In this document: positions 24,501 through 37,729 of the stretch, piece by piece
Layout: each line of letters begins with the position of its first letter
How positions within the stretch are numbered: the first letter of the stretch is position 1
Assembly: GCF_019024325.1 (NCBI RefSeq)
Contig: NZ_JAFNJS010000002.1
Location: forward strand, 496,118 to 560,117
Source: Falsiroseomonas tokyonensis
GTDB taxonomy: Bacteria; Pseudomonadota; Alphaproteobacteria; Acetobacterales; Acetobacteraceae
Direction of reading: 5' to 3'
DNA: 64,000 bases
Notes under the pieces: model-generated
Told to the model about the DNA's origin: nothing
Database searches by the model: none
What the model saw: only the letters and a program-made list of their open reading frames with translations
Made by a program: the position numbers and the translations under genes

Positions 24501-25445
24501 ATGACCAAGATGCGGATCGAGGGGTCCTTCGTCGCCCTGATCACCCCCTTCAACGCCGATGGCAGCGTCGATTTCGGCGGCTTCCGGACGCTGATCGACT
24601 GGCAGGCGAAGAACGGCACCTCCGCCGTGCTGATCATGGGCTCGACCGGCGAGGTCTCGATGCTGACGCCGGAGGAGCGGCGCGAGATCGTCGAGAAGAC
24701 GGCGAAGATGAAGACCGGGAACATGAAGATGTTCTACGGCTGCACCGGCACCAGCACGGCGGCGACCATCGCCTATCTCAAGCACGCCAAGGCCGCCGGC
24801 GCGGATGGCGCGATCCTGGCCGCCCCCGCCTATATCTGCGCGCCGGAAGACGATATCGAGGCCTTCTTCGCCGAATGCGCGGATGCGGTGGAGCTGCCGA
24901 TCGGCATCTACAACAACCCGCCGCGGGTGAAGTCCGACCTGCATTGGGACCATCTGCTGCGGCTGATGAAGCACCCGAACATCGTCGTGCTGAAGGAAAG
25001 CACCACGCGCGTCGGCCAGGTGGCGCAGGTCTGCGCGGCCCAGCCGGATGCGACGATCATGTGCTGCGACAGCCCGAACCTCGGCCTGGTGGTGCCCACC
25101 ATGTCGCTCGGCGGGCATGGCACGGCGAATATGACGGGCAATATCGACCCGGCGGGCCTGGCGCTGCTCTCCACCCCCTGGGCGGACCCGGCGCAGTCCG
25201 TGGTGTTCCGCGAAACCTACCTCCGCCTGCTGCCGCTGCTGCACTTCACCTATTCGGCGATCAACCCGGTGGCGGTGAAGTCGCTGATGAAGGCGGTGGG
25301 GCTGCCGGCGGGTGACTTGCGGCGGCCGCTGACGGGCCTGAAGCCGGACCACCTGGCGCGCGGCCTGGCCATCGTGCGGAACCTCGGCCTGGATGCGCGT
25401 AACGGCTGGAAGACCGCGCCCGCGCTGCCGCTGGCGGCGGAATAG
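24501..25445 (+). CDS. DapA/dihydrodipicolinate synthase family aldolase/lyase
   Basis: A 314-residue TIM-barrel class I aldolase-type enzyme. The Schiff-base lysine is K165 in VVLKES, the catalytic Tyr is Y137 in IYNNPPR, and the substrate carboxylate loop is GSTGE (47-51). All are as in dihydrodipicolinate synthase and relatives. It is probably not the biosynthetic DapA: the context (divergent Bug receptor, sulfite oxidase-like genes downstream) is catabolic, and the family also includes 2-keto-3-deoxy acid and 4-hydroxy-2-oxoglutarate aldolases and KDG dehydratases. GGAGAAA is placed 8 nt before the ATG. Expect pyruvate as product or co-substrate, by family rule. Confidence 0.88.
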   Translation: MTKMRIEGSFVALITPFNADGSVDFGGFRTLIDWQAKNGTSAVLIMGSTGEVSMLTPEERREIVEKTAKMKTGNMKMFYGCTGTSTAATIAYLKHAKAAGADGAILAAPAYICAPEDDIEAFFAECADAVELPIGIYNNPPRVKSDLHWDHLLRLMKHPNIVVLKESTTRVGQVAQVCAAQPDATIMCCDSPNLGLVVPTMSLGGHGTANMTGNIDPAGLALLSTPWADPAQSVVFRETYLRLLPLLHFTYSAINPVAVKSLMKAVGLPAGDLRRPLTGLKPDHLARGLAIVRNLGLDARNGWKTAPALPLAAE

Positions 25446-25458
25446 CGGAAGGGGTCGC

Positions 25459-26790
25459 ATGGCGCAGGAACGCTCGGCCCAGGAACTCTATCGCGACGAT
25501 CCCGAACGCGCCGATGCCGAGGTTTTTGGGCGTCGCGGCGCGCTGGAAGGGCCCGCCCTGCAGGCAATGGAGGCGGCGGTCGGCGCACCCATCCCGGCCG
25601 CCGCCAGCCTGCCTCCCGGCACCCTGCCGGCCGCCATCGCCCGCCCCGGCGCCCAATCGGCAACAAACCCGGCGGCGCTGAACCTGCCGGGCAAGGCGCG
25701 CCTGCTGGTGCATGACGAGACGCCGCTCTGTGCCGAGACGCCGGAGGTGCTGCTGGACGAGGCGGTGACCTCGGCCCCGAACATGTTCATCCGCAACAAT
25801 GGCGGCATCCCGCCGGAGGTGGCGGATCCACAGGCCTGGCGCTTCGTGGTGGACGGGGAGGTGAACGCGCCGCTCTCGCTGACGCTGGGCGAGCTGCAAT
25901 CCCGCTTCCCGGTGGTGACGCGGCAGCTGCAGCTGGAATGCGGCGGCAACGGCCGCGCCTTCCACCAGCCGGCGGCGCGCGGCAACCCCTGGGGCAATGG
26001 CGCCATCAGCAACGGTGCCTGGACCGGGGTGCGGCTGCGTGATGTGCTGCAGGCGGCGGGGCTGAAACCCTCGGCCCGCTTCACCGGGCATTACGGCGCG
26101 GATCCGCATCTCTCGGGGGAGGCGGGGAAGGTCTCCATCGCGCGCGGCATGCGGATCGAGAAGGCGCTGGACGAGGATACGCTGCTCGCCTTCGCGCTGA
26201 ACGGCGCACCGCTGCCGCGTCTGCACGGCGCGCCGCTGCGCCTGGTGGTGCCGGGCTGGCCGGGCAGCCTCAGCCAGAAGTGGCTGACCCGGATCTGGGT
26301 GCGGGACGCGCCGCATGACGGGCCGGGGATGGGCGGCACCAGCTACCGCGTGCCGCGGCATCCGGTGATCCCCGGCAGCGCGCAAGATGGGCGGGGTTTC
26401 GTCGAGCTGGAGAGCATGCCGGTGCGCTCCATCCTGACCAGCCACGCCCATGGCGCCCGGCTGGCGGGGGGCACCCGGCACCTCGATCTGCGCGGCGCCG
26501 CCTGGGCGGGCGACCTGAGCGTGCAGGCGCAGCATGTCAGCCTGGATTTCGGCGCCACCTGGCAGCCGATGACGCTGTTTCCGGCCGCGAACCGCCACGC
26601 CTGGCAGCGCTGGCAGGGCCGCGTCGCGGTGCCGGCGGATGGCTATTATGAGGTCTGGTACCGCGCGACGGACAGCGCCGGCCGGATGCAGCCGCACGCC
26701 GCCGCCAACTGGAATCCGCAGGGCTATGGCGCCAATCCGATCAGCCGTGCCGCCGTATTCATCGGCGATCCGCTTGCGGCCACCGCGTGA
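25459..26790 (+). CDS. Sulfite oxidase-like molybdopterin protein, copy 1, with degraded export signal
   Basis: A 443-residue protein of the sulfite oxidase (SorA/SoxC) family. LQLECGGNGRAF carries the Mo-ligating cysteine (C161). GHYGADPHLSG, GWPGSLSQKWLTRIWVRD and MGGTSYRVP are Moco-domain blocks, and a C-terminal dimerisation domain ends in WNPQGYGANPISRA. It is very similar to the next gene along its length. The RR pair (25-26) of the Tat signal is kept, but the hydrophobic stretch behind it is broken (GALEGPALQAMEAAVGAPIP, with Glu residues), and the AAAQ cleavage site is absent. Export is therefore doubtful. It starts 13 nt after the aldolase gene. Confidence 0.88.
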   Translation: MAQERSAQELYRDDPERADAEVFGRRGALEGPALQAMEAAVGAPIPAAASLPPGTLPAAIARPGAQSATNPAALNLPGKARLLVHDETPLCAETPEVLLDEAVTSAPNMFIRNNGGIPPEVADPQAWRFVVDGEVNAPLSLTLGELQSRFPVVTRQLQLECGGNGRAFHQPAARGNPWGNGAISNGAWTGVRLRDVLQAAGLKPSARFTGHYGADPHLSGEAGKVSIARGMRIEKALDEDTLLAFALNGAPLPRLHGAPLRLVVPGWPGSLSQKWLTRIWVRDAPHDGPGMGGTSYRVPRHPVIPGSAQDGRGFVELESMPVRSILTSHAHGARLAGGTRHLDLRGAAWAGDLSVQAQHVSLDFGATWQPMTLFPAANRHAWQRWQGRVAVPADGYYEVWYRATDSAGRMQPHAAANWNPQGYGANPISRAAVFIGDPLAATA

Positions 26791-26804
26791 TGGGGTGATC
26801 CTTT

Positions 26805-26826
26805 CTCCCGCCGAGAAGTGCGGGAG
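26805..26826 (+). promoter_or_regulatory. Hairpin covering the ribosome binding site of the second sulfite oxidase gene
   Basis: CTCCCGC and GCGGGAG form a 7-bp stem with an 8-nt loop. The right arm contains the GGGAG of the ribosome binding site used by ATG 26838. Folding in the mRNA would lower initiation of copy 2 unless ribosomes finishing copy 1 (stop at 26790) open it. Confidence 0.45.
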
Positions 26827-26837
26827 GACAAGACGCC

Positions 26838-28154
26838 ATGACGCGCAGGACCGAACGGTCGATCCAGGAACTGTATCGCGATGACCCCGAGCGCGCCGAC
26901 GCCCTGGCCTTCGGCCGACGCGGCGCGCTGAAGGGCGCGGCGCTGGCCGCCATGGGCGGCGCGATCGGCAGCGCCATCCCCTTCGCCGGCAACATGCCCG
27001 CCGGCACCTTGCCCGCCCTGTTTGCCCGCCCCGCCGCGGCCCAGGGCAATGCGCCGGCCACCCTCCAGATGGAGGGCAAGGGCCCGCTGATCATCCAGGG
27101 CGAGCGGCCGTTGAATGCGGAAACGCCCGAGACCCTGCTGGATGAGCCGGTGACCTCCGCCCGGAACATGTTCATCCGCAACAATGGCGGCGTGCCGGAA
27201 GTGCCGGCGGATCCGAAGACCTGGAAGCTGACGGTGGACGGGGAGGTGAATACCCCGCTCGAGATCACCCTGGGTGAGCTGGAGTCCCGCTTCCCCGTAG
27301 TGACGCGGCAGCTGCAGCTGGAATGCGGCGGCAATGGCCGATCCGCCTTCCAGCCGCAGACCCGCGGCAACCAATGGGGCAATGGCGCCATCAGCAATGG
27401 CGAATGGACCGGCGTGCGGCTGCGCGACGTGCTGCAGGCAGCGGGTTTAAAGCCGTCGGCCGTTGCCACCGGCCATTACGGTGCGGACCCGCATCTGTCC
27501 GGCGAGCCGGGCCGCCCCTCCATCGCGCGCGGCATGCAACTCGGAAAAGCGATGGACGAGGATACGCTGATCGCCTTCCGCCTGAACGGCGAGCCGATCC
27601 CGCTGGTGAACGGCGCGCCGCTGCGGCTGGTGACGCCGGGCTGGCCGGGCAGCCTCAGCCAGAAATGGCTGACCCGCGTCTGGGTGCGCGACAAGCCGCA
27701 TGACGGCCCCGGCATGGGCGGCACCAGCTACCGCGTGCCGGTGCGCCCGATCGTGCCCGGCAGCAGCAGCAACGGCGCCGATTTCACCGACCTGGAGAGC
27801 ATGCCGGTGCGCTCCATCCTGTCGTCGCACGCGCATGGTGCGCGGCTGCCGGCGGGCACCCGCAGCCTCGACCTGCGCGGCGCCGCCTGGGCCGGCGACC
27901 TGACGGTGCGGGCGGTGCATGCCAGCGTCGATTTCGGCGCGACCTGGACCGAGATGCAGGTGGCCGCCCCCGCGAACCGCCACGCCTGGCAGCGCTGGAC
28001 CGGCCGCGTGGCGCTGCCCTCGGATGGCTATTACGAGATCTGGTACCGCGCGACCGACAGCGAGGGTCGCATGCAGCCGCATCTGCCGGCCAACTGGAAT
28101 CCGCAGGGCTATGGCGCCAATGCCATCAGCCGGGCGGCGATCCTGGTCGGATGA
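26838..28154 (+). CDS. Sulfite oxidase/dehydrogenase molybdopterin subunit, copy 2 (SorA-like)
   Basis: A 438-residue SorA-like sulfite:acceptor oxidoreductase. FGRRGALKGAALAAMGG followed by IGSAIPFAG is a good Tat signal, with AAAQ processing near residue 69, so the folded Moco enzyme is sent to the periplasm. C163 in LQLECGGNGR is the molybdenum ligand. The same block order as copy 1 follows. Downstream, its last codons overlap a cytochrome c gene by 4 nt (ATGA), matching the SorAB arrangement in which electrons from sulfite pass from Mo to a c-type heme. Sulfite from sulfonate breakdown is the likely substrate; methionine sulfoxide-type oxidoreductases of the same fold are an alternative. 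Confidence 0.92.
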   Translation: MTRRTERSIQELYRDDPERADALAFGRRGALKGAALAAMGGAIGSAIPFAGNMPAGTLPALFARPAAAQGNAPATLQMEGKGPLIIQGERPLNAETPETLLDEPVTSARNMFIRNNGGVPEVPADPKTWKLTVDGEVNTPLEITLGELESRFPVVTRQLQLECGGNGRSAFQPQTRGNQWGNGAISNGEWTGVRLRDVLQAAGLKPSAVATGHYGADPHLSGEPGRPSIARGMQLGKAMDEDTLIAFRLNGEPIPLVNGAPLRLVTPGWPGSLSQKWLTRVWVRDKPHDGPGMGGTSYRVPVRPIVPGSSSNGADFTDLESMPVRSILSSHAHGARLPAGTRSLDLRGAAWAGDLTVRAVHASVDFGATWTEMQVAAPANRHAWQRWTGRVALPSDGYYEIWYRATDSEGRMQPHLPANWNPQGYGANAISRAAILVG

Positions 28155-28615: not shown

Positions 28616-31369
28616 ATGACTGCAAGACGCCCCATCTCCGCCCGCATCCTGCACCGGGCGGCGGGCCTGATGCTCTCGGTCTCGGCCGTCGCGCTGCTGG
28701 CAGGCCTGCCGCAGCGCAGCGAGGCGGAGACGGCGACCTTCTTCGACAGCATCTTCGAGGGGCGTGCCGAATTCGATCAGCGCGTGGGCACGGCGGGCGG
28801 CACGGTCAACATGGACCTGCTGTCCGGCCTGACCAGCAACCAGACGAGCTGGGCGCGCAGCGCCTTCACCATCAGCTCCGGCAATGGCGCGACGCGCACC
28901 ACGCGCACCACCAGCTTCCAGAACGTGCAGGGCCCCAGCGGCACCTTCAGCAGCGGCGACAGTGTCCGCATGGTCGCGGACAACAGCGATCCCGCGGGCA
29001 ATGGCCTGGTCTTCACCTTCTCCTCCCCCATCAATGCCTTCGCGATCGAGCTGGAGGGCTGGGCGACCTGCTGCTTCCCCTCCGCGCTCTACATCGCCTT
29101 CGACGGCGGCACGCCGATCCTGATCGGGACCGCGAACAGCAGTACCGACAACCCCGGCGCGGCCCGCTACAGCCAGACGATGACCTTCGTCGCCGCGATC
29201 AGCGACAGCGCCACCTTCTCCACCGTCGCCTTCTATGGCGACGCCACTGGCGACACGATGTGGGGCGGCGGCACGGTGCGCTACGCGCTGGTGCCGCTGG
29301 GCGGCCTGTCCGGCGGCGGCCAGGTGATCGATGGCAGCCAGGCCTTCTTCACCCAGTCCGACGGCGCGGCGCAGGCCACCACCGTGACCTTCAACGGCGG
29401 CACCTTCCGCCCGACCGAGGCCGCCGCGCTGACGCAGCCGGTGGTGATCCAGTCCGGCAACGGCATCATCGACACCAGCCAGGGCGCCGTCATCCTGCTG
29501 GGCGACCTCAGCGGCGTCGGCCAGCTGCAGCTGTTGGGCGGCGGGGTGCTGACCCTGCAGGGCAATGCCAGCAACACCGGCGGCGCGCAGGTGCAATCCG
29601 GCACGCTGGCCATCCAGGGCGCCTTCCAGGGCGCGGTGACGGTGCTGGCGGGCGGCACGCTGACCGGCGGCGGCAGCATCGGCGGCGGCAGCATCGATGG
29701 CATCCTCTCCCCCGGCAGCTCCCCGGGCAGCATCACCTTCACCGCGCCGGTCACCTTCGGCGCCGGCTCCACCCTGCGGCTCGAGATCGACGGGCCGGGC
29801 ACCGGCACCGGCGCCGGCGCGCATGACCAGGTGCTGGTCACCGGCGCGGGCAGCACGCTGACCGCGGGCGGCACGCTGCAGCCGGTGCTGCGCGGCATCA
29901 CCGGCTCCGCCACCAATACCTTCACCCCGGTGCTCGGCCAGACCTTCCGGGTGATCCAGGCCCAGGGCGGGCTGCTGGGCAGCTTCGCGGGCCTGACCCA
30001 GCCGGCGGAGGGGCTGCCTACCGGTATGCGGTTCGACGCCCTGTACGGCGCCAATACGCTGGACCTGGTCGCCACGCCCGCCAGCTACGCCAATCTCGCG
30101 TCGCTCGGCCTCGGCCAGCGGGGCAATGCGGTGGCGGTGGGCGGCGCGGTGGATGCCATCCGCCCGGCGGCCGGGCTGCGGATGGAGGGCGATGCGGCCA
30201 CCACCTTCGGGGCGCTCTATGCGCTGCCGGCCTCCGCCATCGCCCCGGCGCTGGACCAGCTCTCGGGCAGCATCCATGCAGATGCGCTGGCCGCCGCGCT
30301 GGCGCATCGCCGCATGCTGGGCGCGGGCACCGCGCAGCGCATGGCCGCGATCCGGGCCGGGGATCCCGCGCTGGTCGCTGCCCAGGGCGCGCTGGCGCCG
30401 CGCGTGGCGCTGGACAGCGCGCGGACCGTGCAGATGAGCGCCATGCCCGGCGCCGGCACCGCGCCGGACTGGGATTCGGGCGCAGGCCTCGGCGATGGCG
30501 CCGATGGGGCGGAGGCGGGCTTCGCCGGCTGGTCCGTCTGGGGCCGGGCGATGGGCGGCTGGGGCAGCACCGATGGCGACGGCGTCTCGGCCGGCTATTC
30601 CCGGCAATCCGGCGGCGCGCTGGTCGGCGCCGATCGCAGCTTCGCCCCGGGCCTGACCGGCGGCGTGGCGCTGGGCTTCCTGCGCGGCACGGTGGATGGC
30701 GATGGTGGCACCGGGGAGGTGCGTTTGGACAGCTACCAGGCCAGCCTCTACGGCGTCTTCGCGCCGCCGAGTGCGGCGCGCGCGAAACCCTTCGTCGACG
30801 CCATGCTGGGCACCGGCCTCAGCCGCTACGACAGCCGCCGCACCATCAGCTTCGGCACCCTGTCCCGCCGCGCACAGGCCGATAGCGAGGGCACGGATGT
30901 GACGGCGGAACTCGGCTTCGGCCTGACGACGCGGCTGGAGGATGGGGTGGAGCTGGAACCCCGCGCCTTCCTGCGCTGGGACCGCATCGCCCGTGGCAGC
31001 TTCACGGAGACCGGCGCCGATTCGCTGAACCTCGCGGTGGATGGCCGGGACGCGGATGCGCTGCGGGCGGGCATCGGCCTCAGCGCCGCGCGCACCTATC
31101 GCCTGGCCGATGGCTATCGGCTGCGGCCGGAGGCACGAATCGGCTATGCCCGCGAATTGCAGGAGGGGCTGGGCCGCGGCACGCATCGGTTGGGCGGCGC
31201 CGCCTTCGGCGTCGACTCCGCCCGGGTGGGGCGGGACGCGGTGACCGCCGGCCTCGGCGCCACCGCCTATCGCGGCGACCGCTTCGCCGTGGTGGCGGAT
31301 TATGACGTCGCACGCGCCAGCGGTGGTACGGAGCATGTGCTGACGCTGGGCCTGCGCTGGGTCTGGTAA
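28616..31369 (+). CDS. Autotransporter (type Va) with beta-helical passenger
   Basis: A 917-residue surface protein. The signal peptide (to about residue 38, SEAETA) is long. Residues about 40-225 form a beta-sandwich-like region (GLVFTFSSPINAFAIELEGWATCC, similar in tone to carbohydrate-binding or PEP-CTERM ectodomains). Residues about 230-500 are Gly/Thr-rich beta-helix repeats that include the autotransporter-associated block GGTLTGGGSIGGGSIDGILSPGSSPG. Residues about 640-917 are the 12-strand barrel (GWSVWGRAMGGWGSTDGDG to GLRWVW, ending in an aromatic residue as outer-membrane proteins do). No protease triad is evident. The role may be adhesion or a structural surface function; the substrate is unknown. 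Confidence 0.9.
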   Translation: MTARRPISARILHRAAGLMLSVSAVALLAGLPQRSEAETATFFDSIFEGRAEFDQRVGTAGGTVNMDLLSGLTSNQTSWARSAFTISSGNGATRTTRTTSFQNVQGPSGTFSSGDSVRMVADNSDPAGNGLVFTFSSPINAFAIELEGWATCCFPSALYIAFDGGTPILIGTANSSTDNPGAARYSQTMTFVAAISDSATFSTVAFYGDATGDTMWGGGTVRYALVPLGGLSGGGQVIDGSQAFFTQSDGAAQATTVTFNGGTFRPTEAAALTQPVVIQSGNGIIDTSQGAVILLGDLSGVGQLQLLGGGVLTLQGNASNTGGAQVQSGTLAIQGAFQGAVTVLAGGTLTGGGSIGGGSIDGILSPGSSPGSITFTAPVTFGAGSTLRLEIDGPGTGTGAGAHDQVLVTGAGSTLTAGGTLQPVLRGITGSATNTFTPVLGQTFRVIQAQGGLLGSFAGLTQPAEGLPTGMRFDALYGANTLDLVATPASYANLASLGLGQRGNAVAVGGAVDAIRPAAGLRMEGDAATTFGALYALPASAIAPALDQLSGSIHADALAAALAHRRMLGAGTAQRMAAIRAGDPALVAAQGALAPRVALDSARTVQMSAMPGAGTAPDWDSGAGLGDGADGAEAGFAGWSVWGRAMGGWGSTDGDGVSAGYSRQSGGALVGADRSFAPGLTGGVALGFLRGTVDGDGGTGEVRLDSYQASLYGVFAPPSAARAKPFVDAMLGTGLSRYDSRRTISFGTLSRRAQADSEGTDVTAELGFGLTTRLEDGVELEPRAFLRWDRIARGSFTETGADSLNLAVDGRDADALRAGIGLSAARTYRLADGYRLRPEARIGYARELQEGLGRGTHRLGGAAFGVDSARVGRDAVTAGLGATAYRGDRFAVVADYDVARASGGTEHVLTLGLRWVW

Positions 31370-31372
31370 CCA

Positions 31373-31390
31373 CTGTCAGCAAACTGTCAC
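31373..31390 (+). promoter_or_regulatory. Pho box upstream of the STAS/HATPase genes
   Basis: CTGTCAG-CAAA-CTGTCAC: two 7-mers separated by 4 nt, matching the PhoB box pattern (CTGTCAT-N4-CTGTCAT) at 12 of 14 repeat positions. It lies 58 nt upstream of the STAS start. TCTAGA (31412-31417) is a possible -10 element 21 nt behind it. Confidence 0.75.
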
Positions 31391-31447
31391 GCCGCGCGGA
31401 CGGGGCGACGGTCTAGACAACCGCGCCTCGTTTCACGGAGACCGTCA

Positions 31448-31789
31448 GTGCGCTTCGAAGTGGTTGAGATCAGCCCCACCGCCAATAAGGTGCTTTTGGT
31501 GGGGCGGCTGGATGCCACCACGGTGGGGCAGGTGGAAACGCCCTTCACCGCCGCCATCGCCGCCTCCGGCCGCAATGCGGTGCTGGACCTGACGGGGCTG
31601 GAATTCCTCTCCTCGCTCGGCATCCGCCTGCTGCTCTCCTCCGCCCGGGTGGTGTCGCGGCGCGGCGGGGTGGTGGTGCTCTACGGCGCCCAGCCCATGG
31701 TGGCGGAGGTGCTGCAGGCCATGGCGCTGGACCAGGTGCTGCCCCTGGTCGCCACGGAAGCGGAGGCCCTGGCCCGCCTGCCCGGATGA
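31448..31789 (+). CDS. STAS domain anti-sigma factor antagonist-like protein
   Basis: A 113-residue single STAS domain of the RsbV/SpoIIAA type. NAVLDLTGLEFLSSLGIRLLL (about residues 43-63) is the strand and helix that carry the phosphorylatable serine, here S56, aligned with S58 of SpoIIAA. In partner switching, the dephosphorylated STAS protein binds the HATPase kinase and frees that kinase's target (a sigma factor or enzyme). The GTG start has GGAG 10 nt upstream. The stop overlaps the next start (ATGA), and the next gene is the matching kinase. A Pho box precedes the unit. Confidence 0.9.
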   Translation: MRFEVVEISPTANKVLLVGRLDATTVGQVETPFTAAIAASGRNAVLDLTGLEFLSSLGIRLLLSSARVVSRRGGVVVLYGAQPMVAEVLQAMALDQVLPLVATEAEALARLPG

Positions 31790-32214
31790 CCCTTCGCCTG
31801 GAGGTGCCGATCTCACTGGCCGGGCTGGAAGCCGCGCAGGATGCGGCGGAGGCCTGGGCCGAGGGGCAGGGGGTGCCGCCCGCTTTGGTGCTGCGGCTGC
31901 GCCTGGTGGTGGAGGAGCTGGTCGCCAACTTGGTGGAGCACGCCGCCTGGCCGGGCCTGCCGCAGGGCGAGGCGCCGCCGCCCGCGCGCCTCGAAGCCGG
32001 TTTCGAATCGGGCAGGCTGCGCCTAGTGCTGTTCGATGCCGCGCGTCCCTTCGACCCGATTACGGCGCCCGAGGCCGCCGCCCCCTCGCTGGACGATGAC
32101 CGCGTGGGCGGGCTGGGCCTGGCCCTGGTGCGGCGGATGAGCCGGGACCTGGCCTATGCTCCCGGCCAGGATGGATGGAACCGGACCTCCCTGTTCATCA
32201 GCGAAACCCATTAG
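31786..32214 (+). CDS. RsbW-like anti-sigma factor serine kinase (HATPase_c_2)
   Basis: A 142-residue GHKL-fold ATP-binding protein. The N box is VVEELVANLVEHA (about residues 40-52), and a G1/G2 region reads DDRVGGLGLALVRRMSRDLAYA (about 103-124). It is predicted to phosphorylate S56 of the adjacent STAS protein and to sequester an unknown partner. No PP2C phosphatase or sigma factor gene is next to it, so the partners lie elsewhere. The pair sits between an autotransporter gene and pstS. The gap to pstS contains a further Pho box, so both units should respond to phosphate starvation. Confidence 0.88.
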   Translation: MTLRLEVPISLAGLEAAQDAAEAWAEGQGVPPALVLRLRLVVEELVANLVEHAAWPGLPQGEAPPPARLEAGFESGRLRLVLFDAARPFDPITAPEAAAPSLDDDRVGGLGLALVRRMSRDLAYAPGQDGWNRTSLFISETH

Positions 32215-32247: not shown

Positions 32248-32276
32248 TTGTCATCGAAGCTTCATCGAACTGCAAT
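32248..32276 (+). promoter_or_regulatory. Triple Pho-box repeat upstream of pstS
   Basis: Three 11-nt-spaced units: TTGTCAT, GCTTCAT and CTGCAAT, the first two each followed by CGAA. This is the direct-repeat pattern bound by tandem PhoB dimers, about 90 nt upstream of the pstS start. The central units deviate from CTGTCAT at two or three positions. Confidence 0.75.
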
Positions 32277-32364: not shown

Positions 32365-33426
32365 GTGAACAGGCGCACCCTTCTGCTCGGCACCGGCGCG
32401 GCCTTCGGAGCCGGGATGCTGAACGCCCGCGGCGCGATGGCCCAGTCGGCGACGATCACCGGCGCCGGCGCCACCTTCCCCCGGCCGGTCTATGAGCGCT
32501 GGGGCAATGCTGCCCGGCAGCCGACCGGCATCCAGCTGAACTACCAGTCCATCGGCTCGGGCGGTGGCATCAACCAGATCACCAACCGCACGGTGGATTT
32601 CGGCGCCACCGACGCGCCGCGCACCGTGGAGCAGCTGCGTGAGGGCAACCTGATGCAGTTCCCGACCGTCATGGGCTCGATCGTGCTGATCGTGAACCTG
32701 CCGGGCGTGGCCGATCGCCAGCTTCGCCTGACGCCGGAAGTGATCGCGGACATCTTCTTCGGCCGCCTGACGCGCTGGAACGACAGCCGCATCACCGAGC
32801 TGAACCGCAACCTGCGCATCCCGGGCCTGCCGATTTCCGTGGCCTATCGCGCCGATGCCTCCGGCACCACCTGGGGCTTCACCAACTATCTGGCGCGCGT
32901 GTCCTCCGCCTGGAAGGACGGCCCGGGCGCCGGCACCTCCATCCAGTGGCCGGCCGGCCAGGGCGCCCGCGGCAATGAAGGCGTCTCCAACGCCGTGCGC
33001 AACACCCCGGGCGCCATCGGCTATGCCGAGAATGCCTATGCGGTGGTGAACCGTCTGGTGACGACGCAGATCCGCAACAAGGCCGGCAATTTCGTCGAGC
33101 CGGTGCAGGCCACCTTCGTCGCCGCCGCCGATGCCGCCGACTGGTCGGTGCCGAACATGGCGCCGGATACGCTGGACCTGCCGGGCGCCAATGCCTGGCC
33201 GATGACGGTCGGCACCTATATCCTGCTGCCGACCAACCCGGCGGCCGATAAGGTCGAGGCGAGCCGCAACACGATGAAGTTCTTCGACTGGTGCTTCAAG
33301 AACGGCGACCAGATCGCCGGCCAGCTGGAATACATCCCGCTGCCGGAAAGCGTGACGAACGTGATCCGCCGCAACTGGGCCAGCATGGTCAAGACGCCCT
33401 CGGGCGAGGCCATCTGGACCGCCTGA
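32365..33426 (+). CDS. pstS: Phosphate ABC transporter, substrate-binding protein PstS
   Basis: A 353-residue high-affinity periplasmic phosphate receptor. NRRTLLLGTGAAFGAGMLNA then RGAMAQ is a Tat-like/Sec signal cut near residue 27. ITGAGATFPRPVYERWG and YQSIGSGGGINQITNRTVDFGATDAP (about residues 65-90) hold the phosphate-binding Ser, Gly and Asp residues. RADASGTTWGFTNYL (about 168-182) is the third binding segment. GTG 32365 follows GGAGAG and gives the correct signal peptide; the in-frame sequence upstream is the promoter region. It is the first gene of pstSCAB-phoU-phoB and is separated from pstC by a strong hairpin. Confidence 0.96.
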   Translation: MNRRTLLLGTGAAFGAGMLNARGAMAQSATITGAGATFPRPVYERWGNAARQPTGIQLNYQSIGSGGGINQITNRTVDFGATDAPRTVEQLREGNLMQFPTVMGSIVLIVNLPGVADRQLRLTPEVIADIFFGRLTRWNDSRITELNRNLRIPGLPISVAYRADASGTTWGFTNYLARVSSAWKDGPGAGTSIQWPAGQGARGNEGVSNAVRNTPGAIGYAENAYAVVNRLVTTQIRNKAGNFVEPVQATFVAAADAADWSVPNMAPDTLDLPGANAWPMTVGTYILLPTNPAADKVEASRNTMKFFDWCFKNGDQIAGQLEYIPLPESVTNVIRRNWASMVKTPSGEAIWTA

Positions 33427-33520: not shown

Positions 33521-34504
33521 GTGAGCGACATGACGATGGGCGCGCGGGCCGCGCCGAAGCCAATCGGTCGGGGACGCGGGGTCGATATCGGGGATCTTCT
33601 GTTCGAATGGATGTGCCGCGGCGCGGGCATCCTGGTCCTGCTGCTGCTGGGCGGCATCATCGTCACGCTGTTCATCGGCGCGCTGCCGGCTTTCCGCGAA
33701 TTCGGCCTGGGCTTCCTGACCAGCACGGACTGGAACCCGGTGGAGGGGCGGGAGAATTACGGCGGCGCCGTCGCCATCTTCGGCACCGTCGCCTCCGCCA
33801 TCCTGGCCATCGTCTTCTCCGTCCCCGTGGCCTTCGGCATCGCCTTCTTCCTGACCGAGCTGGCGCCCGAGTGGCTGCGCCGCCCGGTGGGCACGGCGAT
33901 CGAGCTGCTGGCCGCCGTGCCCTCCATCATCTACGGCATGTGGGGCCTGTTCGTGGTGGTGCCCTTCGTGCAGATGCACATCCAGCTGGCGCTCGGCGAC
34001 TACCTCACCGCCATCCCGCTGCTGGGCTTCCTGTTCGAAAGCCGCTTCTTCGCCGGCACCTCGCTGTTCACCGCGGCCATCGTGCTGGCCATCATGATCC
34101 TGCCCTTCATCGCGGCCACCATGCGCGACGTCTTCCTGCAGGTGCCGCCGGTCTACAAGGAAAGCGCCTATGGCCTGGGCGCCACGCGGTGGGAGGTCGT
34201 GAAGGGCGTGGTGCTGCCCTATACGCGCATCTCCGTCGTCGGCGGCATCATGCTGGGGCTGGGCCGTGCGCTGGGCGAGACCATGGCGGTGACCTTCGTC
34301 ATCGGCAACGCGAACCGCATGCCGCAGAGCCTTTTCGACCCCTCCACCACCATCGCCTCCATCGTTGCCATGGAGTTCCCCGAGAGCCTGATGGGCAGCC
34401 TGAAGCAGTCGGCGCTGTTTGCGCTGGGCTTTTTGCTCTTCGTCATCTCCTTCCTGGTGCTGGCGGCCTCGCGCTACCTGCTCCGCTCCCGGCTGAAGGC
34501 CTGA
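33521..34504 (+). CDS. pstC: Phosphate ABC transporter permease PstC
   Basis: A 327-residue inner-membrane permease with about six helices. LGFLTSTDWNPVEGRENYGG near residue 65 is the PstC signature after helix 1. YGLGATRWEVVKGVVLPYTR (about 215-234) is the EAA loop that contacts PstB. It pairs with PstA to form the phosphate channel. The start is GTG 33521. An in-frame ATG four codons on is an alternative. The next gene, pstA, starts 3 nt after its stop. Confidence 0.95.
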   Translation: MSDMTMGARAAPKPIGRGRGVDIGDLLFEWMCRGAGILVLLLLGGIIVTLFIGALPAFREFGLGFLTSTDWNPVEGRENYGGAVAIFGTVASAILAIVFSVPVAFGIAFFLTELAPEWLRRPVGTAIELLAAVPSIIYGMWGLFVVVPFVQMHIQLALGDYLTAIPLLGFLFESRFFAGTSLFTAAIVLAIMILPFIAATMRDVFLQVPPVYKESAYGLGATRWEVVKGVVLPYTRISVVGGIMLGLGRALGETMAVTFVIGNANRMPQSLFDPSTTIASIVAMEFPESLMGSLKQSALFALGFLLFVISFLVLAASRYLLRSRLKA

Positions 34505-34507
34505 TCC

Positions 34508-35410
34508 ATGAGCAGCACGACCTTCCAGCCGGAGACGCGCGGCGTGGTCCGCCGCAGCCCGGCGCTCGCCTCGCGCCGCAAGATGGTGGACCTGACGGTC
34601 AAGTGGCTGTGCATGGCCGCCACGCTGATCGGCCTGTTCTTCCTGGCCTCCATCATGCTGACGCTGCTCTGGCGCGGCCTGGTGGCGCTGGACTGGACGG
34701 TGCTGACCGAGGAATTCCGCCCGACGCGCTATGGCGACGACACCGCGCCCAAGGGCGGGCTGGTGCATGCCATCATCGGCAGCCTGATCCAGACCGCCAT
34801 CGGCACCGCCATCGGCACGCCGATCGGCCTGCTGGTGGGCACCTACCTGTCCGAATATGCGCGGGGCTCGGTGCTGGGCAATGTGCTGCGCTTCGTCTCC
34901 GACGTGCTGCTCTCCGCGCCCTCCATCCTGATCGGCCTGTTCATCTACCAGCTGGTGGTGCTGCCCATGGGCGGCTTCTCCGGCATTGCCGGCGCGCTGG
35001 CACTGGCCATCATCGTCATCCCCGTGGTGGTCCGCACCACGGAGGACATGCTGCAGCTGATCCCGAATACGCTGCGCGAGGCGGTGATCGGGCTCGGCGC
35101 GCCGAAGTGGAAGATGATCACGCTGGTCTGCTACAAGGCCGCAGCGTCCGGCATCCTTACCGGCATCCTGCTGGCGGTGGCGCGCATCGCCGGAGAGACG
35201 GCGCCGCTGCTGCTGACCAGCTTCGGCAACAATGTCACCAGCTTCGACCTGACCCGCGCCATGGCCAGCCTGCCGATCGCCATCTACCAGCAGGCCAATT
35301 CCGGCTTCCCCGACCTGATCCAGATCGCGTGGTCCGGCGCGCTGCTCATCACGCTGGGCGTGCTTGCCATCAACATCATTGCCCGCGCCGTGCTGCGCGG
35401 GCGCAACTGA
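34508..35410 (+). CDS. pstA: Phosphate ABC transporter permease PstA
   Basis: A 300-residue permease, the partner of PstC. Its periplasmic entry segment is [45 protein letters not shown] and [22 protein letters not shown] lead into the EAA loop [20 protein letters not shown] (about residues 195-214). [18 protein letters not shown] is a PstA hallmark. It acts in the inner membrane to import phosphate with ATP hydrolysis by PstB. Confidence 0.95.
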
Positions 35411-35429
35411 GCCAGGAAGGGAAGGCCCG

Positions 35430-36266
35430 ATGGGCTCGACGACCGAACAGACCGCCGCCAGCGCCCCCGGCTTCGGCGGCATGCAGGCCCGCTCCGCCGA
35501 GGCGCTGAACGCGCAGGCGCGCATCTCCGTCCGCAACCTCGATTTCTACTACGGCACCAACAAGGCGCTGAAGGGCATCAACCTCGACCTGCCGGACCGG
35601 CAGGTGACGGGCATGATCGGCCCCTCCGGCTGCGGCAAGTCCACGCTGCTGCGTGTGCTGAACCGGATGTACAGCCTGTACCCGGGCCAGCGCGCGGAAG
35701 GCGAGGTGCTGATGGACGGGCGCAACATGATCGACGCCTCGGTCGATCTGAACGAGCTGCGCGCCAAGGTCGGCATGGTCTTCCAGAAGCCCACGCCTTT
35801 CCCGATGACGATCTACGACAACATCGCCTTCGGCATCAAACTGCACGAGAAGCTGCCGAAGTCCGAGATGGACGACCGGGTGGAATGGGCGCTGACGCGC
35901 GCGGCCATCTGGACCGAGGTGAAGGACCGGCTGCAATCCTCCGCCATGGGCCTGTCGGGCGGCCAGCAGCAGCGGCTGTGCATCGCGCGCTCCATCGCCG
36001 TGCGGCCGGAGGTGATGTTGTTCGACGAGCCGACCAGCGCGCTGGACCCGATCAGCACGCTGAAGATCGAGGAGCTGATCGACGAGCTGAAGCGCGACTT
36101 CACCATCTGCATCGTCACCCACAACATGCAGCAGGCCGCACGCTGCGCCGACCAGGTGGCCTTCTTCTACCTCGGCGAGCTGGTCGAGGTGGCGCCCGCC
36201 GCGCAGCTCTTCACCGCGCCGCGCGAGAAGCGCACGCAGGAATACATCACGGGCCGGTTCGGCTGA
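35430..36266 (+). CDS. pstB: Phosphate ABC transporter ATP-binding protein PstB
   Basis: A 278-residue ABC ATPase. Walker A is GPSGCGKS (64-71), the Q loop is [10 protein letters not shown], the signature is [21 protein letters not shown], Walker B is [12 protein letters not shown], and the H loop is [12 protein letters not shown]. The FQKPxPFPMSIYDN-like block is diagnostic for PstB. ATG 35430 has AGGAAGGGAAGG upstream; the open frame before it overlaps pstA and is ignored. Its N-terminus is about 28 residues longer than in E. coli PstB. Confidence 0.97.
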
Positions 36267-36277
36267 GGAGCAGGCAG

Positions 36278-37003
36278 ATGCCCATGGAAACCCAGTCCGA
36301 CCACATCGTGCGGTCCTACGACGAGCAGCTGCGCCGCGTGCGCGACATGCTCGCCCGCATGGGCGGCCTGGCGGAGCGCCAGGTGAATGACGCGACCGTG
36401 GCGCTGGTGCGTCGGGACGCCGCGCTGGCGGCGGAGGTGATCGGCCGCGACGCCGCGCTGGACCAGCTGGAGCGCGAGATCGAAGCCTTCTGCATCCGCA
36501 TCCTGGCCACCCGCCAGCCCATGGCGATCGACCTGCGCTTCATCGTGGCCGCCATGAAGGTGGCGCACAACCTGGAGCGCATCGGCGACTATGCCCGCAA
36601 TGCCGCCAAGCGCAGCATCGTGGTGGGGCAGCAGCCGATCCTCGGCAGCCTGAACGGCTTTTCCCGCATGGCGCGCCTGGTGCAGGAAAACCTGAAGGCC
36701 GCGATCGACGCGCTGGTGAACGACGATGCCGAGGCCGCGGCGCGGGTCTGGGGCAATGATGAGCCGGTGGACGATGTCTACAACGGCATCTTCCGCGAGA
36801 TGCTGACCTTCATGATGGAGGACCCGCGCAACATCACCGCGGCCACGCATCTGCTCTTCATCGCCAAGAACCTGGAACGCATCGGCGACCATGCGACCAA
36901 CATCGCCGAGACGGTGCATTACGCCGTGCGCGGCGACAGCCTGCCGGATGAGCGGCCCAAGGCGGACAGCTCCGCCTATGCCGTGGTCCGGCCGCCCGAG
37001 TAA
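36278..37003 (+). CDS. phoU: Phosphate transport system regulator PhoU
   Basis: A 241-residue all-helical PhoU made of two three-helix bundles. Each has the metal-binding pattern: DLRFIVAAMKVAHNLERIGDYARN (about residues 84-107) and HLLFIAKNLERIGDHATNIAE (about 190-210). PhoU couples PstSCAB activity to the histidine kinase PhoR, represses the Pho regulon when phosphate is ample and limits Pst uptake. It starts 11 nt after the pstB stop with GAGGAG upstream. Confidence 0.96.
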   Translation: MPMETQSDHIVRSYDEQLRRVRDMLARMGGLAERQVNDATVALVRRDAALAAEVIGRDAALDQLEREIEAFCIRILATRQPMAIDLRFIVAAMKVAHNLERIGDYARNAAKRSIVVGQQPILGSLNGFSRMARLVQENLKAAIDALVNDDAEAAARVWGNDEPVDDVYNGIFREMLTFMMEDPRNITAATHLLFIAKNLERIGDHATNIAETVHYAVRGDSLPDERPKADSSAYAVVRPPE

Positions 37004-37015
37004 GGGAACGCCCCC

Positions 37016-37729
37016 ATGCCCGAAGCCATCGGCAGCCTCGCCAAACCCACCATCCTGGTGGTGGAGGACGAGGCCCCCCTGCTGACGCTGCTGCGCTACA
37101 ACCTGGAGAAGCAGGGTTTCCGCGTCGAGGAAGCGACCGATGGCCAGGAGGCGCTGATGCGCGTGGCCGAGGGCAAGCCCGACCTGATCCTGCTCGACTG
37201 GATGCTGCCGGCGCTCTCAGGCCTCGAGGTCTGCCGGCAGATCCGCCGGCGGCCCAATACCCGCGACCTGCCCATTATCATGGTCACCGCCCGCACGGAG
37301 GACCAGGACGCGGTGCGTGCACTGGATACCGGGGCGGACGACTATATCTCGAAGCCCTTCGTCATGGACGCACTGCTGGCGCGAATCCGCGCCCTGCTGC
37401 GGCGGTCGGGCGCCGTGCCGGTGAAGGGGCGGCTGAGCTACCGCGACCTGGTGATGGACCAGGACGCGCATCGCGTGACGCGCGGCAGCCGGTCGCTGCA
37501 CCTGGGCCCCACCGAATACCGGCTGCTGGAATTCTTCCTGCAGCATCCGGGCCGCGTCTTCACCCGCGAACAGCTGCTGGATGCCGTCTGGGGCCGCGAC
37601 ATCCATGTGGAGCCGCGCACGGTGGACGTGCATATCCGCCGCCTGCGCAAGGCGGTGAACGGCGACAACGAGGCGGATATCATCCGCACCGTCCGCTCCG
37701 CCGGCTACGCGCTGGACGTCGAGGAGTAG
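37016..37729 (+). CDS. phoB: Phosphate regulon response regulator PhoB
   Basis: A 237-residue OmpR/PhoB-class regulator. The receiver domain has DE at 18-19, the phosphoacceptor D61 in LLDWMLP, T91 in VTARTED and K113 in YISKPF. The winged-helix effector domain (about residues 135-237) ends PRTVDVHIRRLRKAVNGD and IRTVRSAGYAL. Phosphorylated PhoB binds the CTGTCAT-type boxes seen at 31373 and 32248. The kinase gene phoR is not in the window, unlike the phoR-pst-phoU-phoB order common in alphaproteobacteria. Confidence 0.95.
   Translation: MPEAIGSLAKPTILVVEDEAPLLTLLRYNLEKQGFRVEEATDGQEALMRVAEGKPDLILLDWMLPALSGLEVCRQIRRRPNTRDLPIIMVTARTEDQDAVRALDTGADDYISKPFVMDALLARIRALLRRSGAVPVKGRLSYRDLVMDQDAHRVTRGSRSLHLGPTEYRLLEFFLQHPGRVFTREQLLDAVWGRDIHVEPRTVDVHIRRLRKAVNGDNEADIIRTVRSAGYALDVEE

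Follow-up and report, generated by a model that had tools for sequence, protein, structure and literature searches.

A stand-alone STAS-domain protein (STAS1) and a stand-alone HATPase (HAT1), encoded together just before the phosphate-uptake genes of Falsiroseomonas tokyonensis, probably form a PhoB-controlled, RbaVW-like partner switch, which a receiver-SpoIIE protein perhaps dephosphorylates. We hold this reading with moderate confidence. A switch-like pair beside phosphate-uptake genes suggests that phosphate hunger is coupled to a second response. It also gives a concrete setting in which to test whether phosphate starvation and a serine-phosphorylation switch belong to one regulon.

The STAS1-HAT1-pst locus

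The genome analysed (G000) comprises 6.16 Mb, and all window coordinates refer to the 64-kb stretch of it that was studied, which occupies G000:C12:496118-560117. A preliminary description of this DNA had named an antagonist and kinase pair followed by pstSCAB-phoU-phoB, and profile searches recover both: the pair matches STAS (PF01740, TIGR00377) and HATPase_c_2 (PF13581) models, PstS, PhoU and PhoB were recognised through Pfam and NCBIfam, and pstC, pstA and pstB through translation and synteny. The features of the locus are as follows.

31373..31390, plus strand: candidate PhoB box CTGTCAGCAAACTGTCAC (CTGTCAG-CAAA-CTGTCAC), 12/12 to CTGTCA-N5-CTGTCA
31412..31417, plus strand: TCTAGA, possible -10 element, 21 bp past the box
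31437..31441, plus strand: GGAGA, likely ribosome-binding site of STAS1, from the sequence
31448..31789, plus strand: STAS1, stand-alone STAS-domain protein of 113 aa, anti-sigma-factor-antagonist type (PF01740, 5.8e-15; TIGR00377 above cut-off)
31786..32214, plus strand: HAT1, stand-alone HATPase_c_2 protein of 142 aa, RsbW/SpoIIAB type (PF13581, 8.2e-18)
32248..32276, plus strand: candidate pstS Pho box, TTGTCAT-CGAA-GCTTCAT-CGAA-CTGCAAT, three repeats in an 11-bp register
32365..33426, plus strand: pstS (TIGR00975 above cut-off)
33521..34504, plus strand: pstC (reading frame, translation and synteny only)
34508..35410, plus strand: pstA (reading frame, translation and synteny only)
35364..36266, plus strand: pstB, frame as listed, real start probably further in (reading frame, translation and synteny only)
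36314..37003, plus strand: phoU (PF01895)
37016..37729, plus strand: phoB (TIGR02154 above cut-off)

The stop codon of an autotransporter gene precedes the box and the STAS gene. The latter starts with GTG, and the HATPase gene, which starts with ATG, shares 4 bp with it. The pstS start lies 150 bp past HAT1, and pstC, pstA, pstB, phoU and phoB follow in this order. The gene order is shared by F. selenitidurans. A scan of the stretch found no terminator-like site between HAT1 and pstS, which is weak evidence since only 0.4 such sites would be expected by chance. A tie between the pair and the autotransporter gene (28616-31369) was considered and rejected, as the roughly 1.3-1.5 kb upstream hold no autotransporter match in 6 of the 11 pair-keeping genus loci. 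Further upstream in the window, two similar adjacent frames (25393-28154; 465 and 438 aa) look by eye like a tandem-duplicated oxidoreductase, and a small cytochrome-like frame comes after them.

Conservation was followed with a STAS profile searched against 397 genomes of the family. Thirteen matches reached E <=9e-48, namely our own genome, ten other members of the genus, G011 and G377; the profile rows among them are our own sequence, G369, G195, G356 and G011. Weaker matches continue gradually from 4e-38. The genus set, for which G397 and G398 were added to the profile matches, consists of 15 genomes, 13 of them pair-bearing. Rare adjacency to pst in relatives had been named beforehand as an outcome that would speak against the proposal; the comparison was run, and within the genus STAS1, HAT1 and pstS are contiguous on one strand in 13 of 15 genomes, with a HAT1-pstS gap of 145-225 bp. 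In the other two, G095 and G308, the 18 kb around pst contain no STAS or HATPase match.

Outside the genus, the STAS family occurs at E <=9e-48 only in G011 and G377 among the 397 family genomes, G011 being itself a profile row. In G011, which belongs to another genus, a STAS gene (46% identity to STAS1) begins 12 bp behind phoB, accompanied by a HATPase gene whose product is closer to a second stand-alone HATPase of our genome, HAT2 (39.7%), than to HAT1 (33%). In G377 the STAS gene lies away from pst: the 16.4 kb read hold only a 31% ABC-ATPase match and no other pst gene. An order-level search of 395 genomes yielded the strong genomes already known from the family search, with no additional genus ranking above them.

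Evidence for Pho control

The Pho box consensus is CTGTCAT-N4-CTGTCAT, with a usual spacing of 10 bp to the -10 element. To judge sites, we counted matches to the 12 fixed bases of CTGTCA-N5-CTGTCA, an E. coli-type consensus, and took the reversed pattern as control. Pho boxes are described as direct repeats overlapping the -35 region (PMC10294691, PMC2695467). The box proposed earlier in front of the pair lies where it had been placed, scores 12/12 and spans -75 to -58 relative to the STAS1 GTG, a start codon kept in all 13 pair-bearing genus genomes.

It is the sole site of at least 11/12 in the 64-kb window. Pattern and reversed control give 31 versus 19 window sites at 9 or more matches, 2 versus 3 at 10 or more, and 1 versus 1 at both 11 and 12; the control's 12/12 match is apparently the 31373-31390 site itself, judging from the letters read by eye. 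The 6.16-Mb genome holds three exact copies of CTGTCA-N5-CTGTCA, this site among them. Allowing at most one mismatch, the pattern (7 matches) is no commoner than its control (7 matches), so genome-wide box counts prove nothing alone, and the idea of a genome-wide enrichment of near-consensus Pho boxes was rejected. Two further places, L051 (G000:C12:152225-152241) and L054 (G000:C3:134101-134117), carry Pho-box-like repeats on the minus strand with 0 and 1 mismatch, respectively. A plus-strand TCTAG stands just behind these repeats, as if the order were reversed, and no phosphate genes are recognisable by eye among the neighbours.

Unlike the genome-wide counts, position and conservation do count as evidence for the candidate box. 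We took the best-scoring site in the 150 bp preceding the STAS gene at each of 13 loci, namely G011, G377 and 11 from the genus. The scores add up to 118, whereas 500 shuffles averaged 92.3 and never exceeded 101. Scores in the slot from -80 to -70 are 12, 12, 11, 10, 10, 9, 9, 9, 8, 8, 7, 6 and 5 across the 13 genus genomes that carry the pair. At -74 to -76 the site reaches at least 9/12 in 8 of these genomes and 8/12 in two more, so that the suggested check on relatives finds it at 8/12 or better in 10 of 13. G356 and G262 are both among these ten and have a 9/12 site elsewhere upstream. The lowest scores (5-7 of 12) belong to G344, G152 and G287, where the pair still adjoins pstS. Eight of these 13 genomes carry the exact TCTAGA hexamer 20-21 bp past the box; a consensus scan found no sigma-70-type promoter.

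The pst operon had been credited with a box of its own, and a candidate is present in the three-repeat element at 32248-32276. This element and a CCTAGA in the pstS promoter are both conserved across the 4 aligned genomes. The fit of the element to the E. coli-type consensus is modest, and it is weaker than the STAS1 box: the first two repeats score 8/12, with a shuffle P of 0.17 taken alone.

Because the STAS1 box is conserved in 10 of 13 genomes, the pair adjoins pstS in 13 of 15 and no SpoIIE-family phosphatase is encoded near it, membership of the pair in the Pho regulon is very probable. According to the preliminary description, a pair under Pho control would connect phosphate starvation with a protein-level switch, and such pairs normally serve sigma control. 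Regulon membership, with its conserved box and pstS adjacency, stands as very probable, while sigma control finds no support here. We also considered the pair as a substitute for phoR beside phoB. This was rejected, since the best phoR-model match lies on a different contig from pst/phoB in all 15 genus genomes; these best matches stay below the curated cut-off in 15 of 15, with or without the pair.

STAS1 and HAT1 as a probable partner-switching pair

We took as marks of a partner switch a phosphorylatable serine at the position of SpoIIAA Ser58, a residue mentioned in PMC8256260, intact N, G1 and G2 boxes and a one-operon layout, and the pair shows all of them. Counted by eye in the alignment, Ser56 of STAS1 falls opposite residue 58 of a SpoIIAA chain of solved structure; it is invariant in 15 orthologues. 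Equally invariant in 15 orthologues are the N-box Glu/Asn/His, the G1 Asp and the G2 GG.GL of HAT1. With starts chosen by script, the 15 orthologue pairs have gaps of between -11 and +28 bp from the STAS to the HATPase gene.

The solved sequence nearest to a HATPase profile that holds one HAT2-type row is RsbW (6m36, E 2.9e-4). STAS1 scores 34.9 bits against the SpoIIAA equivalog TIGR02886, far below the cut-off of 114.75 expected of a SpoIIAA/SpoIIAB sporulation pair. The mean pairwise distance is 0.27 for STAS1 versus 0.52 for HAT1. A mirror-tree comparison of the two proteins gave a correlation of r = 0.74, which carries no weight because shared ancestry predicts such a correlation.

A distant candidate phosphatase and its chemosensory cluster

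It had been stated that no phosphatase lies nearby and that the partner is unknown. The first part holds for the SpoIIE family, as a genome search for its domains found no such gene near STAS1-HAT1; the second can be narrowed to one receiver-SpoIIE protein about 93 kb from the pair, which contains the only SpoIIE-family domain of the genome. Its gene neighbours encode an MCP, a fasciclin-domain protein, CheA, CheB, a CheW-domain protein, CheR and the stand-alone HATPase HAT2. A Na/Pi cotransporter gene and a gene for a xanthine/uracil-type permease adjoin HAT2. A second stand-alone STAS gene, STAS2, lies elsewhere in the genome. The relation to the pair is distant, with 31% identity between STAS2 and STAS1 and 38% between HAT2 and HAT1. 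Because the cluster has its own HATPase and STAS2 exists, the receiver-SpoIIE may not act on STAS1.

SpoIIE proteins occur in 14 of the 15 genus genomes, the exception being G308, which lacks the pair, and each of the 13 pair-bearing genomes has at least one. In G095, also without the pair, the SpoIIE gene sits beside STAS and HATPase genes of its own. Eight of the 13 pair-bearing genomes have a confirmed copy of the chemosensory receiver-SpoIIE itself, and a ninth, G231, probably has one. In G152, G287, G344 and G356 the SpoIIE proteins examined show 25-42% identity to it or no match; it was not found in these four, a few weak SpoIIE matches aside, and the idea that it is a constant companion of the pair was rejected.

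Eleven of the 15 genus genomes contain a match to HAT2, which has the Na/Pi cotransporter gene beside it in 7 of the 11 loci. The gap between the two genes in our genome (L049:6001-6018; G000:C12) contains a Pho-box-like site of 10/12, GTGTCATCTATCAGTCAT, which faces HAT2 and is the only site of at least 10 in 19.5 kb. Among the 11 genus loci, sites in the direction of HAT2 reach 10/12 in our genome and in G195 (shuffle P 0.003 each), and 7 or 8 in the other nine (P at least 0.19). Taken together with L107-L109, the 11 loci give a site sum of 118, against a shuffle mean of 101.2 and a maximum of 111 (300 shuffles). The site in our genome could serve the cotransporter instead of HAT2. The xanthine/uracil-type permeases at L049:2430-4196 and L109:6847-8595, both on the minus strand, have about 165 C-terminal residues outside the Pfam match, and by eye these tails recall a worn HATPase domain.

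Similar clusters occur in other genera. We compared 21 loci with HAT2-like or STAS2-like genes, consisting of 8 g4 and 7 g17 genomes from the family STAS search and six others; for g4 and g17 the sample takes in only genomes with a STAS match in that search. Eleven of the 21 have a HAT2-STAS2-Che cluster downstream of pstSCAB-phoU-phoB (7 of 8 in g4, 4 of 7 in g17, 0 of 6 in the others):

Loci L107, L108, L109, L136 and L138-L144, genera g4 and g17: clusters downstream of phoB

The extent of these clusters varies, as L108 stops at CheR and L143 has no CheR or CheW match. A receiver-SpoIIE is present in 6 of the 11, all from g4, and its presence in every cluster behind phoB was thus rejected. 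In L143 and L144, from g17, none was found although the stretches run 2.7-3.4 kb beyond CheA; those of L108, L109 and L136 end too early to show it. Five of the 11 clusters have HAT2 within about 330 bp behind phoB and no separate box. In three others a transporter gene stands between, and the 230 bp before HAT2 hold a site of 12/12 (G374) or 11/12 (G332, G348). The remaining three (L136, L142 and L144; a permease between in G330 and G202, a 620-bp gap in G314) have no such site before HAT2, and in G278, whose cluster lies away from pst, a 10/12 site precedes it. Over all 21 loci, sites upstream of HAT2 show no enrichment (sum 163, shuffle mean 153.3, maximum 164; 200 shuffles). By gene neighbourhood, the chemosensory cluster is linked to phosphate in our own and in other genera. 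A single bacterial family has two different STAS/HATPase modules associated with pst-phoB, and one of these comes with a chemosensory cluster behind phoB.

Proposed mechanism and alternatives

In the mechanism we favour, phosphorylated PhoB would bind the box at 31373-31390 when phosphate is short and switch on STAS1-HAT1 alongside the separately boxed pstSCAB-phoU-phoB. HAT1 would phosphorylate Ser56 of STAS1, upon which the two proteins would separate. A SpoIIE-type phosphatase would remove the phosphate, the proteins would rebind, and a third partner would be freed or captured. The likeliest phosphatase would be the receiver-SpoIIE of the phosphate-linked chemosensory cluster about 93 kb away. 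The module would have joined the Pho regulon in Falsiroseomonas-like bacteria. As to the output, STAS1 is far better conserved than HAT1, and for this reason we consider a non-sigma target, or STAS1 itself, no less likely than a sigma factor.

Other readings share part of this evidence. Pho control may be genuine and the pair served by no dedicated phosphatase or by an unknown one. HAT1 would then be an anti-sigma factor or other binder, its release would follow the quantity of newly made STAS1, and PhoB would be the switch, acting by dosage. Such a scheme accommodates the lack of a SpoIIE-family gene near the pair, the failure to find anything close to the receiver-SpoIIE in the pair-keeping G152, G287, G344 and G356, and the stronger conservation of STAS1. 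It sits less well with the invariance of Ser56 and of the HAT1 ATP-site motifs in 15 orthologue pairs, and with the distribution of SpoIIE proteins, present in 13 of 13 pair-bearing genomes, absent from pairless G308 and found in G095 once, beside its own STAS/HATPase genes. We regard dosage as rather unlikely. We also think it unlikely that phosphate starvation is tied to a stress regulon through a sigma factor under the control of the pair, on the model of RsbV/RsbW in Bacillus. STAS1 does exceed the TIGR00377 cut-off for anti-sigma factor antagonists and RsbW is the nearest solved HATPase, but the SpoIIAA equivalog score (34.9 versus 114.75 bits) and the reported lack of interaction between RbaW and the sigma factors tried in R. 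capsulatus (PMC3999984) weigh against it; a sigma factor as target would follow from the family name only.

Distinctly improbable, we think, is that the box serves mainly as a second upstream promoter raising pst transcription, the pair being a passenger with a function unrelated to phosphate. The pair and pstS do share a strand at 145-225 bp in 13 genomes, and the missing terminator-like site between HAT1 and pstS points weakly the same way, given the 0.4 expected by chance. Against this, pstS has its own conserved box and CCTAGA, the STAS box keeps a constant distance from the STAS start, and two other genera have a distant HATPase/STAS pair (HAT2, STAS2) linked to phoB. A wider possibility, which we advance tentatively and with some doubt, is a PhoB-induced, CheA-driven network, in which a chemosensory array would act on the receiver-SpoIIE and not on a flagellum, and would thereby determine how far one or two STAS/HATPase pairs, with genes at pst-phoB or behind Pho boxes elsewhere, are phosphorylated. 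Phosphate status would then be read twice, by PhoR-PhoB for transcription and by a chemoreceptor for protein binding.

Relation to known systems

A PhoB-controlled partner switch made of STAS1 and HAT1, the reading we prefer, can be compared with several known systems. In Bacillus, RsbV/RsbW control a sigma factor. Like RsbV/RsbW and SpoIIAA/SpoIIAB, the present pair combines STAS and HATPase domains, a serine at the phosphorylation position and ATP-site motifs; unlike them, it has a Pho box and no SpoIIE gene beside it, and it does not reach the SpoIIAA equivalog cut-off. SypA/SypE, BtrV/BtrW and HmpV/HmpW show that the STAS protein or another non-sigma target is a possible output (PMC8256260), as may be the case here. 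They serve biofilm, secretion or motility, and no PhoB link is named for them in the parts of that paper drawn on. Among the open-licence literature matches listed, taken by title and start of abstract, none connects an alphaproteobacterial STAS/HATPase pair with PhoB or pst.

The nearest published idea in the material drawn on is pstS2-pknD of Mycobacterium tuberculosis, where a Ser/Thr kinase gene likewise shares a predicted operon with a pstS gene and PknD is reported to phosphorylate a predicted anti-anti-sigma protein (PMC3322341, PMC4601284). It differs in having a eukaryotic-like kinase with a sensor domain, in responding to osmotic stress instead of phosphate, and in coming from another phylum (PMC3322341, PMC4601284).

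The nearest characterised alphaproteobacterial system is RbaV/RbaW, for which two-hybrid assays with the sigma factors tried were negative (PMC3999984). RbaVWY of Rhodobacter capsulatus is reported to depend on CtrA and to be connected with the production of gene transfer agents and with viability in stationary phase (PMC3999984). As in STAS1-HAT1, RbaV-RbaW form a two-gene operon with overlapping STAS and HATPase genes; RbaY, with receiver and PP2C domains and a gene number of its own, resembles the separate receiver-SpoIIE found here (PMC3999984). In contrast to RbaY, the receiver-SpoIIE sits in a chemosensory cluster, and the pair has a Pho box and pst as neighbour, neither of which is named for Rba in the part of PMC3999984 available. 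The partner switches in the papers cited serve stress, sporulation, biofilm, secretion or gene transfer. Set beside them, STAS1-HAT1 provides low phosphate as a defined condition under which the output of an RbaVW-like system can be sought.
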